Notes under the pieces: generated by a model
Told to the model about the DNA's origin: nothing
Databases searched by the model: none
Seen by the model: only the letters and a program-made list of their open reading frames with translations
NCBI RefSeq assembly: GCF_001270065.2
Contig: NZ_LFYT02000001.1
Span: forward strand, 62,001 to 126,000
Reading direction: 5' to 3'
Length of the DNA: 64,000 nucleotides
From: Limnohabitans planktonicus II-D5
Lineage (GTDB): Bacteria; Pseudomonadota; Gammaproteobacteria; Burkholderiales; Burkholderiaceae_C
Part shown: one piece after another, positions 27,061-36,105 of the stretch
Numbering within the stretch: the stretch's first letter is position 1
Layout of the letters: each line of letters opens with the position of its first letter
Program-made: the position numbers and the translations under genes

Positions 27061-28458
27061 TTATGCAGATTTGAGCGGAGGGCGTACAGCGCCACGCGCT
27101 GGCCGCAGCAAGGGGGCCATGGCCCACAGCGTCAGGGCCAGCAACAGGATTTCAAAGCCATAAACCACCGAGTAGCCCATGACCGAACTGCTGCCCAGTG
27201 CCACGCCGTCGCGCACCAGACCGCCCAGTGCCATGCCCACGCCCGCAGCCGTGGCCTGCACCGCACCCCAGGCACCCATGGCCAGGCCGGTTTGCTCTGG
27301 CGGGGCCATTTGCATGGTGGCGGTCAGGGTGCCGTGGGCAAACATACCACCGCCCAAACCGATCAGGAAAATGCCGAACGCAAACAAGGGTGCCCAGGCC
27401 AAAGGGCCAGAGGCGATGACAGCCGCAAAAGCAGGCACGCCCACCCAAGCCCCCCAGCTGGCCATGCGGTAGGCATCGCCCCCTCGGCCCAGCACACGTG
27501 AAGCCCAGGCAAAACCGATCAAGCCGCCCAAGGCCAGGTTGGCTGTGAGCAAGGTGGTGGTGGACACGCTCAAGCCCAGGATCTCGCCGCCATAGGGCTC
27601 CAGCAAAACGTCTTCCATGGTGAAGGCCATGGTGCCCAGTCCCACGGCAAGCAAACGCCGCACGGTGTTGGGGCCTTGGCAAAACAGCTGCCAAGCCTGC
27701 GAAAAGGTGTGCTCAATGGGCGTGCCGGGCTTGCGCATGCGACTGCGCGGCTCTTGTTTCCACAGGGCGACCACGTTGAGCACCAGGGTCATCACGGCCA
27801 CGGCTTGCACCACACGAATGAGCTGACCCGGGCTGTAGTCGCGCAGCAAATGGCCGAGCATCAAGGCGCTGCCAATCATGCCGACCAGTTGCATCACATA
27901 CATGAGGCCCACCACTTTGGGTTGACTCTCGGGCGGGGCCAGGTCAGTGGCCAGTGCCAAACCTGCGGTTTGCACGGTGTGCATGCCAATGCCCACCAGC
28001 ACGAAGGCACCCGCAGCGCCCACCAGCCCCACCCACGCCGGTGCCTGACTGGACTGTCCGGCACCGGCCAGGACCAGCAGTGCAAAAGGCATGATGGAAA
28101 AACCACCGAATTGCAGCAAGCTGCCCATCCAGATATAGGGCACACGCCGCCAGCCCAGTTGCGAGCGGTGGTTGTCCGAGCGAAAACCAATCAGGGCGCG
28201 AAAAGGAGCGACAAGCAAAGGCAGGGCCACCATCAAAGACACCAGCGTGGCGGGCACTTGCAGCTCCACAATCATCACACGGTTGAGGGTGCCCACCAGC
28301 ATGACCATGGCCATGCCGACAGAAATTTGAAACAGCGACAAGCGCAGCAGACGAGACAGCGGCAGATCATCGCTGGCGGCGTCGGCGAATGGCAAAAATC
28401 GCGGACCCAAGCTGGCCAGCGAGTTCGCCCAAGAAGACCGTGTTTTTGTTTTGTTCAT
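27061..28458 (-). CDS. pucC: PucC, LH2 assembly protein (BCH1/PucC MFS family)
   Basis: A 465-residue 12-span MFS-type protein that follows pucBA and is needed in purple bacteria for LH2 formation. It shares RLLRLSLFQISVGM, LVGTLNRVMIVELQVPATLV and the GFRSD loop with LhaA, and its start aligns with LhaA at the ATG at 28458. A GTG at 28506, just after pucA, would add 16 residues. A GAAA-loop hairpin lies between pucA and this start. Assignment to pucC rather than another paralog rests on position. Confidence 0.92.
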   Translation of the reverse strand: MNKTKTRSSWANSLASLGPRFLPFADAASDDLPLSRLLRLSLFQISVGMAMVMLVGTLNRVMIVELQVPATLVSLMVALPLLVAPFRALIGFRSDNHRSQLGWRRVPYIWMGSLLQFGGFSIMPFALLVLAGAGQSSQAPAWVGLVGAAGAFVLVGIGMHTVQTAGLALATDLAPPESQPKVVGLMYVMQLVGMIGSALMLGHLLRDYSPGQLIRVVQAVAVMTLVLNVVALWKQEPRSRMRKPGTPIEHTFSQAWQLFCQGPNTVRRLLAVGLGTMAFTMEDVLLEPYGGEILGLSVSTTTLLTANLALGGLIGFAWASRVLGRGGDAYRMASWGAWVGVPAFAAVIASGPLAWAPLFAFGIFLIGLGGGMFAHGTLTATMQMAPPEQTGLAMGAWGAVQATAAGVGMALGGLVRDGVALGSSSVMGYSVVYGFEILLLALTLWAMAPLLRPARGAVRPPLKSA

Positions 28459-28468
28459 AAGGGAAAGA

Positions 28469-28488
28469 CCAAGCGCTTTCGCGCTTGG
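28469..28488 (-). other. pucA-pucC intercistronic hairpin
   Basis: On the minus strand CCAAGCGC-GAAA-GCGCTTGG forms an 8-bp stem capped by a GNRA tetraloop, with no U-run. Such a structure would protect the upstream pucBA message from 3' decay or attenuate read-through into pucC, giving excess antenna peptide over assembly protein. Confidence 0.7.
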
Positions 28489-28509
28489 CCGTTCGGCGGG
28501 TTGCACCCG

Positions 28510-28701
28510 TTACTTCTTCACCGTCGCGTCAGCAGGTGCCGCAGCAACCACTTTGGCGCCGCCATTGAGGAAGCCCTTCACCCACGTGGTGTTCAAGGTC
28601 AAAGCCAGGTGCACGCTGAAGGACGCGACAGCCACAGCAGCAATGAACACGGGAATGCCCACAGAAGGTTTCACCACCAACCACATTTTCGAATAGATCA
28701 T
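28510..28701 (-). CDS. pucA: LH2 alpha polypeptide (PucA), B800-820-like residues
   Basis: A 63-residue antenna peptide that aligns without gaps to the Rhodoblastus acidophilus LH2 alpha chain: KMWLVVKPSVGIP, His31 as the B850 Mg ligand (SVHLAL) and Thr38-Thr39-Trp40. Positions 44 and 45, whose side chains hydrogen-bond the C3-acetyl groups of B850, are Phe-Leu instead of Tyr-Trp or Tyr-Tyr. That pair is found in LH3 (B800-820). An Ala/Lys-rich tail follows. It is next to pucB and ahead of pucC. Confidence 0.94.
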   Translation of the reverse strand: MIYSKMWLVVKPSVGIPVFIAAVAVASFSVHLALTLNTTWVKGFLNGGAKVVAAAPADATVKK

Positions 28702-28713
28702 GAGGTGTCCCCT

Positions 28714-28866
28714 TTACTTGAGCCAGGGTGAATAGATGTAGGCCAGCAGATGGGCAAATGCGGCAATCATGCCGAAAATCTGCGTACCCTGAATGAGATT
28801 GCGGTGAATCTCTTCCGATTCGGCCTGGGTCAGTCCCGTTGGCCAGACTTTGTCTGAGTCAGACAT
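28714..28866 (-). CDS. pucB: LH2 beta polypeptide (PucB)
   Basis: A 50-residue antenna peptide too small for routine calling. It has the beta-type opening WPTGLTQAESEEIHRNLIQG, whose first His binds or neighbours B800, then IFGMIAAFAHLLAYIYSPWL with the B850 His ligand. A clear AAGGAG ribosome site precedes the ATG at 28866. No PpsR operator was found between crtC and this gene, so it may depend on read-through from the superoperon or on an unrecognised promoter in the 138-base gap. Confidence 0.94.
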   Translation of the reverse strand: MSDSDKVWPTGLTQAESEEIHRNLIQGTQIFGMIAAFAHLLAYIYSPWLK

Positions 28867-32325: not shown

Positions 32326-33387
32326 CTACTTGGCCGCAACTTTGGCAGCGGCCAAAGCGGGTTTGAGCAATTCAGGAAAGTCTTTGGCCATGGGCGCACC
32401 ATTCAAAGGCTTGTAAGCACCCTGGTGGCAAGTGGCGCAGTTGAGCTTGGCCACGTCACCCAGAGGACCCTTGCGGTTCGCCGGGAAGACTTCGGTCAAG
32501 GACTCCATATAGGTCAGGTTCAGGTCACGCGCCATGCGGATGCCGTGCCAGGCCGTCACACGCTGAGGCGGGCTGTTTTCCCAGTTCTGGAAGGACTGCG
32601 TGTTGTGGCAATAAGTGCAGTTCACGCCCAGCGAAGTCGACATGTGCGTCATCAGCCCATAGGTCCACTCGGCTTGCTTGATCGACTGGCGGTTGCCCGA
32701 GGGCAGCGCGGTGGGGCCGTTCACGCGGATGTTCTGCTTGTCCAGCAAGAACGGGGTGAACGGGTCGTTGGGCAAAGAGGACAAATTGACCACGGGTGAA
32801 GGGGTGTTTTGTCCAGCCTTGTCACCGATGAAGTTCGAGCCTTGCGGTTGAGGATCAGACTTGAACCAGATGGCGCTGGGCACGGGCTCGCCACGGTGGC
32901 AGGTGTAGCAGGTCACGCCGGTCTGCGCGACGTGGGGTTGCCAGTCGGCGTTGATGTGCTGCGTCATCTCGACCATGCGCCGCGCCACCACCTTGGTGTA
33001 TTTGCTGTCGTCTTCAAAATTGGGCAAGGCGTGGCAATACGCACAGCCTTCGTTGGGTGCCACCCAGCTGGTCATGGAGACCATCAGGCGGTTGAAATCG
33101 CCCACGCTCAGGTCACCCAGGACCTTGACGTTCTTGTAGACCTTGGAGGCTTTGGGACCGTCAGACCCCGCCGAAGGAATGACCACAGGCGGTTGGTTCT
33201 TTTCGGTTTTGACTTCGAGCAGGCGTGCGTTGTAAACCTGCGCCATGCCGGTGCCCCGGTAGCCGCTTTGCACCGTCTCGGGAATGGGACGTTCGCAACC
33301 GGCCAGCACGATGCCGACCAGTGCCAGGCCCAAGCCTTTGGCCATGCGGCCCAGCCAACGGGGTGGGTGTGTGGTGTTCGGGTTCAT
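32326..33387 (-). CDS. pufC: Reaction-centre tetraheme cytochrome c subunit PufC
   Basis: A 353-residue lipoprotein with the lipobox LAGC (Cys31) and four heme-binding sites CAYCH, CYTCH, CTYCH and CATCH. It sits on the periplasmic face of the reaction centre and re-reduces the special pair. The ATGA overlap with pufM couples their synthesis. Presence of PufC rather than PufX fits the betaproteobacterial assignment. Confidence 0.97.
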
Positions 33388-34361
33388 GGCTTGACTCCTG
33401 TGCTCAGCGCGGGGTCAACCATCGCTGGAAAAATTTCGGGGTACGGTGGTGCCACGCCATGCTTGATGGCCCAGAGGTACCAGTTGTCCACCACAGTGCC
33501 GGTCAGCAAGATGCCGATGCCGCCCGTGATGGGGCACAGGACTGCGAACCACCAGGCCCAACGGTGAATCGATTCCATGGTGGCGTTGAATCCCATGGTC
33601 CAGCGCCAGAACAAGGCCGCACGCTCAGAGGCCGTGCCCCGGTCGGTGATCTGTTCGATCTCGCGTTCACCACCAAAGCGGGTCACCGCCAAAATGGTCG
33701 CACCGTGCATGGCAAACAGCAGGGCCGAGCCATAGAGGAACACGATCGACAGCGCGTGGAAGGGGTTGTAGAACAGGTTGCCGTAGCGCAGCGAGAAAGC
33801 CGCCGTCCAGTCCAGGTGGGAGAAGATGCCGTAGGGCACAGCCTCACCCCATGAACCCATCAAGATGGGGCGGAACAAGCCCAGCACCAGGAACAACCAG
33901 ATGGCTGCCGCAAAGGCCCAGGCGATGTGTGTGCCCATGCCCAGCTCGACCGCACGGCGGTAAGTGCGGGCCCACCAGAACATGACCGATGCGGTGAGGA
34001 ACAGGCCAACGATGAGGAACCAGCCGCCCTGGTTGAGCGGTGGCATGCTCAGGCCGTAGCTCGGTGGCGGTGGCTCCAGCGAGAGCCAGAACAACTGACG
34101 CACAAACTGGATCGGGTCGTAGTTGACCGAGGCCAGCATGTTCATGCCGATCAGGGTGAAGGCGATCATGCCAAACACGAGCGAGGCCAGACCCAGGCCA
34201 CCCAAATAAATGGGGCCGAGCTGGGCATTGCCCAGTTTGCCGATCCAGTAGTTGATCAGGGGTTGCCCGGTGCGCGGGCTGTTGCCGTGTCCGAGTTCCA
34301 CCCCGTGGTGGACTGGACCCACGGCTTGCACCGTGGTGAACAGGTTTTGATAGTCGGCCAT
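33384..34361 (-). CDS. pufM: Photosynthetic reaction centre M subunit
   Basis: A 325-residue five-helix membrane protein with the [26 protein letters not shown] region carrying the special-pair His and the C-terminal [29 protein letters not shown] region with the quinone and iron ligands. GAGGAG precedes the ATG. Overlaps pufC by ATGA. Confidence 0.98.
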
Positions 34362-34408: not shown

Positions 34409-35245
34409 TCAGACCGGCCACTGGGACCAGATCGGCATGTTCAGCCACCAGCTCCACCACTCGGGCCAGCCACGGCTCCAGAAGGGGCCGCTGAGCACAA
34501 TGCACAGGGCGCTGAACAACACGGCCGCCAGCGCCAGGAACAGACCCAGGCGGTGGATGCCCAAGGTGCCGATCGAGTAGCCGATGATGTCGCGGAAGAA
34601 CGTGTCTTCGTGCTCGGGTGTCTTGACCACGGTGCCCGGTGCGGGGTTGGTGGAAGACAGGATCAGACCGCCGTGCAGCGACAAGGCAAACACGCTGGCG
34701 AAGAAGAAACTCACGGCGATCATGTGCGCCGGGTTGTAGTGAAAGTGCAGGTACTGGTAGCCCACGTTGGAGACCCAGTCCAGGTGGCTGTAGATGCCAT
34801 ACGGAAAGCCGTGGCCCCAAGCCCCCATGAGCACAGGGCGAATCACCACCAAGGTGACATAGGCCGAGATGGCCACACCGAAGGCCACGGGCACATGAAA
34901 GCCCATGCCCAGCTTGCGGCAAATTTCGACCTCGCGCATCATCCACGAGCCAAATGCGCCGATGGCACACACCGTGATGAGCTGCCACAGGCCGCCTTCC
35001 ATCAGGGGCGCAAAGCGCAAGCCGTAAGACAAATCAGGCGGTGCGATGCTGATTTGCCAAATGTTCCAGGTCGGGCCTTGTGAGGCACCCCACAAGATGA
35101 GGGCTGTACCCAGGAACGCAAAGAACAGGGTTGTCACGCCGAAGAAGCCGACGTAAAACGGTCCGACCCAAAAGTCGAACAAATCACCACCCAGCAGGGT
35201 ACCACCGCGAACACGGTACTTTTTTTCAAAACTCAGCATGGCCAT
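34409..35245 (-). CDS. pufL: Photosynthetic reaction centre L subunit
   Basis: A 278-residue five-helix protein with the canonical opening [17 protein letters not shown] and the special-pair region [24 protein letters not shown]. The first ATG (35245) after CAGGAGGA is used; an ATG two codons later exists. It is separated from pufA by the intercistronic hairpins. Confidence 0.98.
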
Positions 35246-35278
35246 GGTTGGGTCCTCCTGCTTCAGTGGATCAACAGA

Positions 35279-35308
35279 TGCCGCATTGACACGAGGTCAA
35301 TGGCGGCA
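35279..35308 (-). other. pufA-pufL intercistronic stem-loop
   Basis: TGCCGCATTGAC and GTCAATGGCGGCA pair into a 12-bp stem with one bulged G and a 5-base loop. A second small palindrome GTCCTGGATCAGGAC (35321-35335) spans the pufA stop. Such hairpins stabilise pufBA mRNA against 3' decay in purple bacteria and set the antenna to reaction-centre ratio. Confidence 0.8.
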
Positions 35309-35328
35309 ACTGAACGGCAAGTCCTGGA

Positions 35329-35538
35329 TCAGGACTTGGGCGCGGCGAGCGAAGCCACCGCAGTCGGCAGCGGCGAGTTTTGCGCCGATGCTGCTACGGG
35401 TTTTTTCGCGCCGTCGAGCCAGTTGAATTTGTTGGTGCTGAGCAAGATGAGGTGAATCATCGCGGCCAGGCCAAACAAGAAAATGCCCTGCAGTACCATG
35501 GCACGCAAAGGGTCGTAAAGTCGCCAAATTCTCCACAT
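35329..35538 (-). CDS. pufA: LH1 alpha polypeptide (PufA)
   Basis: A 69-residue antenna peptide opening [20 protein letters not shown], with the bacteriochlorophyll His in [15 protein letters not shown] and the hydrogen-bonding Trp eleven residues after it, as in normal B870-type LH1. A 25-residue Ala/Pro-rich tail follows. Its ribosome site TAGGAG overlaps the stop codon of the 74-aa gene upstream. Confidence 0.96.
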
Positions 35539-35548
35539 GGTGAATCTC

Positions 35549-35773
35549 CTAAATGATGTGGGACATGAAGGTGTACACCGCAGCTTTCACACCCTGACTC
35601 ATGCTCTTGGCATCTTCTGCACCAGGCAGCAGATCCCGCCAGTGAACGCCGACCAGTTTGGCCAGTACGACGACCACAAACAGGCATCCGAATCCGATGA
35701 GGAAAATGGACCAGTAAGCGGGAGACTCATCCGCACGCGAATGGGCCTCATTGAGGTGGCTTGTGTTGGGCAT
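35549..35773 (-). CDS. 74-aa single-span membrane protein between pufB and pufA
   Basis: One hydrophobic helix ([19 protein letters not shown], about residues 23-41) is preceded by a polar N-terminus and followed by [20 protein letters not shown] and [15 protein letters not shown] lies 8 bases before the ATG and its TAG stop forms part of the pufA ribosome site, so it is translationally linked to the antenna genes. It lacks the beta-type His/Trp pattern and does not look like PufQ or PufX. In well-known puf operons pufB and pufA are adjacent. I do not recognise the family; a minor subunit or assembly factor of RC-LH1 is inference. Confidence 0.82.
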
Positions 35774-35817
35774 GACAGTGACTCCGTCAATCTATGGATG
35801 AAAAAACAGGCTCTGAA

Positions 35818-35961
35818 TCAGAACCAGGGACGCCACGCCCAGACCAGGATGTGGGCCAGCACAGCAACTGCTGTAAAGCCCACGGTGCCCTGCATCCAGT
35901 AGTGGTGGAACTCCTGGGCTTCCTCATCGGTGAGTCCGGAAATTGATGTCTTGGTGGACAT
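35818..35961 (-). CDS. pufB: LH1 beta polypeptide (PufB)
   Basis: A 47-residue antenna peptide, [20 protein letters not shown] then [17 protein letters not shown] and [10 protein letters not shown]. It has the bacteriochlorophyll-binding His in VLAHIL and the Trp nine residues later. AAAAGGAG precedes the ATG at 35961. It is the first puf gene after bchZ and is separated from pufA by the 74-aa gene. Confidence 0.96.
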
Positions 35962-35973
35962 GTTTTGCTCCTT

Positions 35974-36105
35974 TTAAAGAGGCCTTGCGACCCGGGTTGC
36001 GCACAGCCCGCGCAGATGGGCATCCGCAGCCAAAGGCCACGACATCCGGTCAGCGGCACCGCACGCGGCAGCACCTGCTGTTGTGTTGATCAAGGTGTGG
36101 CTCAT
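35974..36105 (-). CDS. Possible 43-aa peptide between bchZ and pufB
   Basis: The frame starts in an ATGA overlap with the bchZ stop and ends 12 bases before pufB. The product ([20 protein letters not shown] and 23 more) is Ala/Arg-rich with no clear membrane span and does not resemble PufQ, which lies at this place in Rhodobacter. It may be an uninformative frame in a GC-rich leader; the ATGA coupling is the only support. Confidence 0.25.

Follow-up and report, generated by a model that had tools for sequence, protein, structure and literature searches.

A pigment-less relative of LH1 beta encoded between pufB and pufA: a candidate structural subunit of RC-LH1 in phototrophic Burkholderiales

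The window, by which we mean the whole 64,000-nucleotide stretch of Limnohabitans planktonicus II-D5 DNA that was analysed, carries on its minus strand the genes bchZ, pufB, ORF74, pufA, pufL, pufM and pufC (Pfam and NCBIfam); the name bchZ is based on nitrogenase-type and PCP_red matches plus the place of the gene. The pufB gene (35818..35961; PF00556, NF040862) encodes a short LH1 beta subunit of 47 residues that ends in WRPWF, and pufA (35329..35538; PF00556, NF040861) encodes LH1 alpha. Between these two LH1 genes lies ORF74 (35549..35773, stop included), a minus-strand frame of 74 codons plus TAG. The earlier note had placed a 74-residue ORF here, and the list of open reading frames, the homologues, the selection on the frame and its homology to beta lead us to regard the product as a probable pigment-less paralogue of LH1 beta. 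Farther along the operon are pufL (34409-35245; PF00124), pufM (33384-34361; PF00124) and pufC (32326-33387; PF02276). Just upstream of pufB is a short frame starting with MSW (35974-36045, minus strand); such a frame was found upstream of pufB in 55/105 distinct operons, at −83 to −87 in the examples printed, and may encode a leader peptide. The window also has, on the minus strand, a second antenna pair, alpha-like (28510-28701) and beta-like (28714-28866; both PF00556), with a PucC gene (27061-28506) after it. This LH2-type set (27061-28866) lies inside the photosynthesis gene cluster, an arrangement reported for Limnohabitans (PMC12654162).

The ATG of ORF74 is preceded by GACGGAGTCACTGTC, in which GGAG (35782..35785), read from the sequence, is the ribosome site. 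From the ORF74 stop to the pufA start the sequence is TAGGAG-ATTCACC-ATG, where TAG is the first half of TAGGAG (35546..35551), placing the stop codon inside the pufA ribosome site. A Shine-Dalgarno-like motif at most 18 nt from the ORF74 start and the TAGGAG that joins the ORF74 stop to the pufA site were both kept in 35/35 relatives (L001-L035; start sites chosen by rule). The ribosome site and the shared stop described in the earlier note are thereby confirmed, and by its position and its start and stop signals ORF74 is, as that note held, arranged for translation together with LH1. Pairing energies predicted against the 16S tail are −7.9 kcal/mol for pufB, −6.1 for ORF74 and −7.3 for pufA, which makes the ORF74 ribosome site the weakest of the three in the window; in 88/125 loci the pufB site is stronger than the ORF74 site.

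The earlier note called the protein unrecognised, and this did not hold, because the ORF has been described as ORF2 of Rubrivivax gelatinosus and, judged by position and name, as ORF74 of Roseateles depolymerans. PMC12817894, citing Nagashima 1994, lists for the puf operon of Rvi. gelatinosus a pair of ORFs with no assigned function: ORF1 precedes pufB, and ORF2 precedes pufA and is the extra ORF between pufB and pufA treated in section 8 of that paper. Since Rvi. gelatinosus has the same extra ORF (L062, L064), the adjacency of pufB and pufA, given in the earlier note as the rule for well-studied operons, is not universal. ORF2 occupies the same operon place as ORF74 of the window and its homologous sequence is included in our set; the Roseateles gene is likened by its name and by a locus tag between pufB and pufA (PMC10037100). 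In section 8 of PMC12817894, ORF2 is aligned with PufA proteins, with 10-15% identity to PufA2 and no His, and an origin of pufA2 from ORF2 is rejected; our profile comparison (hhalign) of ORF74 with alpha likewise gives only 4%. That section contains no comparison of ORF2 with PufB and states no beta ancestry, and a full-text literature search covering few subscription papers returned no statement of a beta origin for ORF2 or ORF74. Many ORF74 homologues carry the automatic JGI name “light-harvesting complex 1 beta chain”, indicating that annotation software had already picked up the resemblance.

The earlier note had proposed looking for homologues at the same place in related puf operons, and they are there: the gene order is pufB-ORF74-pufA in 125/125 loci. 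These are the loci in which all three genes were detected by models, so that other orders would have shown and a missing ORF74 would not. Among 126 loci, 111 distinct pufB/ORF74/pufA protein triples were counted; the locus counts used in this work (97, 98, 125, 126 and 131) contain repeats, as some genomes are present twice. A single ORF74 sequence matched 89 protein clusters and the ORF74 profile 2177, with 120 among the matches listed; some others will be beta chains. A relative is encoded by 97 loci in species genomes, of which 80 were kept, including those of Rubrivivax gelatinosus and R. benzoatilyticus, and 41/100 relatives of the window's genome have a match at E<=0.01.

PufM was present in 48/399 genomes drawn from the order, and by hand count 38 of these have ORF74, in one case (G111) only in part, close to where the contig ends. 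Five carry one long PufB instead (G088, G225, G239, G312, G342), and in three of a single genus, g68 (G128, G248, G279), PufB is short and a different ORF precedes pufB. The remaining two (G206, G359) end at a contig edge beside pufM and have no ORF74 elsewhere in the genome; outside the 48, G333 has ORF74 without a PufM match. The five long-beta genomes and the three of g68 show that RC-LH1 as such can do without ORF74. At the level of the class, 8/369 genomes match: ORF74 itself is found in the two of the window's family (G000, G108), and the other matches are beta chains, plus the upstream ORF in G574. None of the 18 stretches of viral contigs that fit a pattern encodes a relative.

One locus of the window's own genus (L110, genome G023) has a second, very different puf antenna set, with GYLLWAAGAFFAHSLVWIWRPWF in beta and IHLIQISGDRY in alpha, and ORF74 is kept there between pufB and pufA. 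Similar sets are found in other families (L139, L173, L174), which may reflect transfer of the photosynthesis cluster.

ORF74 is a real gene under purifying selection. The codon conservation check that the earlier note had suggested gave a median dN/dS of 0.107 for 36 sequences (the window and L001-L035; 630 pairs, those with dS <= 0.05 yielding no ratio), with 0.022 for pufB as a comparison value. The ratio fell from 0.20 (residues 2-19) through 0.10 (residues 20-45) to about 0 (residues 46-74), where mean dN was 0.012 and mean dS 0.409. This C-terminal part, which starts with RDLLPGAE (35552..35638), is the most constrained part of the protein. The tail was intact in 97/98 loci read in the right orientation, a count that leaves out 12 of the 30 loci L081-L110 because of orientation. 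The exception is a metagenome-assembled genome, L108 (1483-1881, plus strand), in which the tail is deleted and the remaining frame enters pufA, by assembly error or true decay; this sequence was left out of the 97-sequence set. Because the hydrophobic moment of the tail was not beyond that of shuffled sequences (p 0.076), an amphipathic tail helix is not claimed.

Expression data exist for the Roseateles gene. In R. depolymerans, pufA, pufB and ORF74 were the three loci most reduced in an SP70 mutant, to 0.71, 1.09 and 2.34% of wild type, respectively, and were co-transcribed on the major 1-kb puf transcript (PMC10037100). A transcript of this length would leave scant space for the reaction-centre genes. 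In the window, the 83-nt spacer between pufA and pufL (35246..35328, minus strand) is predicted to form an RNA fold with a strong hairpin (−27.2 kcal/mol); this predicted fold would fit a stable pufB-ORF74-pufA segment, and the hairpin could protect that part of the mRNA.

Profile comparison places ORF74, almost certainly, among the paralogues of LH1 beta, from which it has diverged. When the window ORF74 was searched against PDB chains with phmmer, an LH1 beta chain came first (8z81_B, E 0.0013) and 6/8 matches up to E 10 were antenna chains, the other two being weak. The Rvi. gelatinosus copy also found an LH1 beta chain first (E 2.8e-10), and 25/27 of its matches up to E 1 were antenna chains; the non-antenna matches of both searches (2/8 and 2/27) all had E 0.09 or more. 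A profile of 24 ORF74 sequences reached E 1.5e-14, and 38/38 of its matches at E<1 were antenna chains. The matching chains were named beta, alpha/beta subunit or light-harvesting protein, and no PDB chain was recognised as ORF74.

Alignment of profiles with hhalign gave a probability of 99.6% (E 1.5e-24, 74 columns) against six long betas and 96.2% (E 2.1e-9) against 78 short betas. The helix part and the tail each matched the long beta when compared separately (E 7.8e-15 and 7.3e-11). With columns shuffled within segments 100 times, the best scores were 20.0 and 20.8, compared with real scores of 44.7 (short beta) and 118.1 (long beta), and the reversed alignment yielded nothing. Among family models, the NCBIfam pufB model matched 11/24 ORF74 members at E<=1 (best 2e-5) and the Pfam LHC model 0/24 at the same cut-off. 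One member also matched an unrelated NCBIfam hypothetical model at 3.7e-5 and three matched a Pfam DUF (best 0.0031); as such stray matches of single small membrane proteins occur, we place the weight on the profiles and the shuffles. A view of the protein as unlike antenna proteins is not supported, because it is a diverged relative of LH1 beta. A match to a characterised antenna family, which the earlier note had held to speak against its reading, was found in part: the homology to LH1 beta is there, and the His ligand of that family is missing.

ORF74 has a single hydrophobic helix, about residues 22-43 (35645..35710), assigned by reading the sequence and aligned with the membrane helix of LH1 beta. 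The codon for Lys39 (35657..35659) stands at the site of the His that ligates bacteriochlorophyll (BChl) in LH1 beta, here called position 0. This His is missing in 111/111 distinct ORF74 sequences, replaced by Gln (51), Lys (32), Ser (14), Thr (7), Asn (3) or others (4); Gln or Asn could in principle ligate Mg weakly. In the betas, His occupies both position 0 and position −18 in 78/78 short and 6/6 long sequences. At −18 of ORF74 Trp is commonest (57/111), and a His anywhere from −20 to +4 is found in at most 3/111. After the helix, ORF74 keeps the Trp +6 and Arg +7 of the beta family in 110/111 and 109/111 sequences. The earlier note had seen no antenna-type His/Trp pattern; this stands for the His and fails for the Trp-Arg pair. 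ORF74 thus shares with long LH1 beta a full-length profile alignment, W+6 and R+7, and a tail of the type G-V-K-A-A-V; it differs in lacking His 0, in never having Pro at +8 (111 sequences), in having Gly for Val or Ala at +3, and in the missing Pfam LHC match. Position +3 is Val in 74/78 short betas and Gly in 86/111 ORF74 sequences, and all 86 also have a small residue at −1. The conserved helix positions share one face (shuffle p 0.001). This face points about 67 degrees away from the lost His and may serve helix packing where there is no pigment.

The conserved C-terminal part of ORF74 is missing from the short PufB and matches the tail of the long-type PufB. In 131/131 ORF74 loci PufB is short, ending at most four residues past WRPW. 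An extended PufB was found in 10 loci (8 genomes, one of which, G733, has an extension of another kind), and 0 of these have ORF74. Pigment binding and tail therefore seem to be split over two genes where ORF74 is present, apparently a clear-cut example of two properties of one antenna subunit being shared out between genes. Both plans occur in the genus g30, with ORF74 in G134, G177, G216, G400 and G426 and a long PufB in G088, G312 and G342. A short PufB with no ORF74 that passed was seen in 9 loci of 7 genomes (L108, g68 and gammaproteobacteria). Long beta is also found in gammaproteobacteria (L140, L142) and in PDB chains of 65-75 residues. One gammaproteobacterial genome (G481) has a long PufB together with a His-less ORF upstream, so that outside the order the split of the tail is not clean. 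The window and Rvi. gelatinosus share the same best PDB M chain, 9m8m_M (568 bits), and the beta chain of 9m8m has 67 residues, is of the long type and has the normal His; as a long beta is seen in no ORF74 locus, the 9m8m species is probably one without ORF74.

A His-less, beta-like ORF upstream of pufB was seen in two gammaproteobacterial genomes (L167, 2817-3194, minus strand; L168, 3009-3323) and in three of g68 (L148, 3412-3675; also L149 and L150). It aligns with ORF74 over the full length (hhalign 98.2%, E 3.4e-14) and differs from it in lying upstream of pufB and in forming a separate group in the tree (98/91). The ORF74 tail alone gave a non-significant 5.8% against it, and a relation of the tails is accordingly not claimed. 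None of the three upstream ORFs tested matched a Pfam family over the cut-off, and the 31 related proteins are called hypothetical where named. A PufQ identity, suspected from size and from a weak match of this upstream ORF (gammaproteobacteria and g68), was ruled out by profile comparison.

In the tree, 44/45 ORF74 rows fell into one group (91/92) apart from all betas, the fragmentary row L165 lying outside; the 74 columns are few for 90 rows, and on the same data a single origin was not rejected (p-AU 0.348). The distribution is explained most simply if an ancestral long beta, with a BChl-binding His in its helix and a C-terminal tail, was duplicated and the two jobs were then divided: the short PufB would have retained His and BChl binding, and ORF74 would have retained the tail and the one-sided helix-packing face and dropped the His. 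In some lineages the reverse is possible, namely a beta that acquired the ORF74 tail when the neighbouring genes recombined and fused.

A beta copy that has lost its His and keeps a strictly conserved tail probably serves as a structural component of the photosystem and not as a collector of light, since without the His no normal BChl-binding alpha-beta unit can form. Beta ancestry, a transcript at the level of the antenna genes and the loss of the ligand together point to a beta that carries no pigment and sits in or on the LH1 ring, and a structural subunit of RC-LH1 is the likeliest role. We put the probability that ORF74 is a diverged LH1 beta paralogue serving as a pigment-less structural RC-LH1 subunit at roughly 0.55; that it physically associates with RC-LH1 in one way or another is rather probable. 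As a structural subunit, ORF74 would be made alongside LH1 and inserted with the topology of beta, its tail in the periplasm. It would lie in or against the LH1 ring and take the position of a beta, or one next to it, once or a few times (a single position per ring is a guess); its small-xxx-Gly face would pack on a neighbouring helix where BChl would otherwise be, and on the periplasmic side its tail would touch the subunits next to it. Pairing of alpha with a pigment-less beta would interrupt the exciton ring and could give quinone a way through; the likeliest single consequence would be a spacer or a defined interruption of the ring, such as a quinone passage. This gap or spacer role is put forward tentatively, as one possibility among several. 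It is similarly doubtful that most phototrophic Burkholderiales have split an ancestral bifunctional LH1 beta and use the pigment-less beta as a permanent ring subunit that interrupts the BChl ring at a fixed place and forms the quinone gate.

Several small proteins of photosynthesis clusters function in assembly, and ORF74 might be another, acting transiently while LH1 is built: as a stand-in for beta it would pair with newly made alpha (or with LhaA or PucC), be swapped for the real beta-BChl and stay outside the finished complex. The place of the gene between those for beta and alpha, the absence of a pigment ligand and a ribosome site mostly weaker than that of pufB would suit such a factor. 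We consider it unlikely all the same, because the antenna-level transcript in Roseateles exceeds what a catalytic factor would need (PMC10037100), and because in long-beta species the matching tail belongs to the antenna protein itself, which argues for a structural role.

The same transcript level (PMC10037100), together with the single conserved helix face whose small-xxx-Gly motif suits helix packing, could also point to a gamma-like outer filler, with many copies per ring lying between the betas to make LH1 more stable or to close quinone pores. In Rhodopila globiformis, however, the gamma-like peptides (11 copies) are only 22 residues long and oriented opposite to alpha and beta (PMC9640540), whereas the kinship of ORF74 with beta extends along the entire protein, and a filler of this kind appears improbable.

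A PufQ-like regulator of tetrapyrrole flow, relocated to the place between pufB and pufA, is very improbable. PufQ resembles ORF74 in plan, with one helix, about 74 residues (five sequences compared), a conserved C-terminus and a gene in the puf operon (PMC5725709). In addition, no true PufQ (PF05398) was found over the cut-off in 32 genomes, and the same model finds PufQ in 5/299 genomes of the phylum. However, pufQ precedes pufB in pufQBALMX (PMC5725709), and against five true PufQ sequences the ORF74 profile gave 6% (tail 0.05%, helix part 17%) as compared with 99.6% for long beta; the earlier judgement that the protein is unlike PufQ was sound. Finally, that ORF74 is a non-functional remnant of a pufB duplication, as the lost His and the deleted tail in L108 might hint, is effectively refuted by selection: dN/dS is low and about 0 in the tail, the tail is intact in all loci of the count except one, and the gene is kept beside the very different antenna type in L110.

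With ORF74 read as a structural subunit, a puf ORF known since 1994 (as cited in PMC12817894) is given an ancestry, a likely place and a testable prediction, and Rvi. gelatinosus is a genetically tractable species in which to test it. Phototrophic Burkholderiales are common in fresh water. How quinone leaves the LH1 ring, and what extra subunits shape that ring, is a central question of purple-bacterial photosynthesis, and it has been answered by unrelated proteins in different groups.

PufX, protein W (PufW) and protein U/Y are small accessory membrane proteins that shape the ring, and the role proposed here for ORF74 is comparable; we know of no beta origin for any of them. No PufX-type family, nor one for protein W or protein U/Y, appeared among the Pfam matches of 24 ORF74 members, Pfam presumably including a PufX model, in agreement with the earlier statement that the protein is unlike PufX. 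Protein W is predicted to have three helices (PMC7806223), and the PufX gene stands at the end of the operon, whereas ORF74 lies between pufB and pufA. On this proposal ORF74 would do a job like that of PufX, protein W or the gamma polypeptides while descending from beta; if this is true, a quinone gate formed by ORF74 would be an independent answer to the closed-ring problem, built from an antenna subunit.
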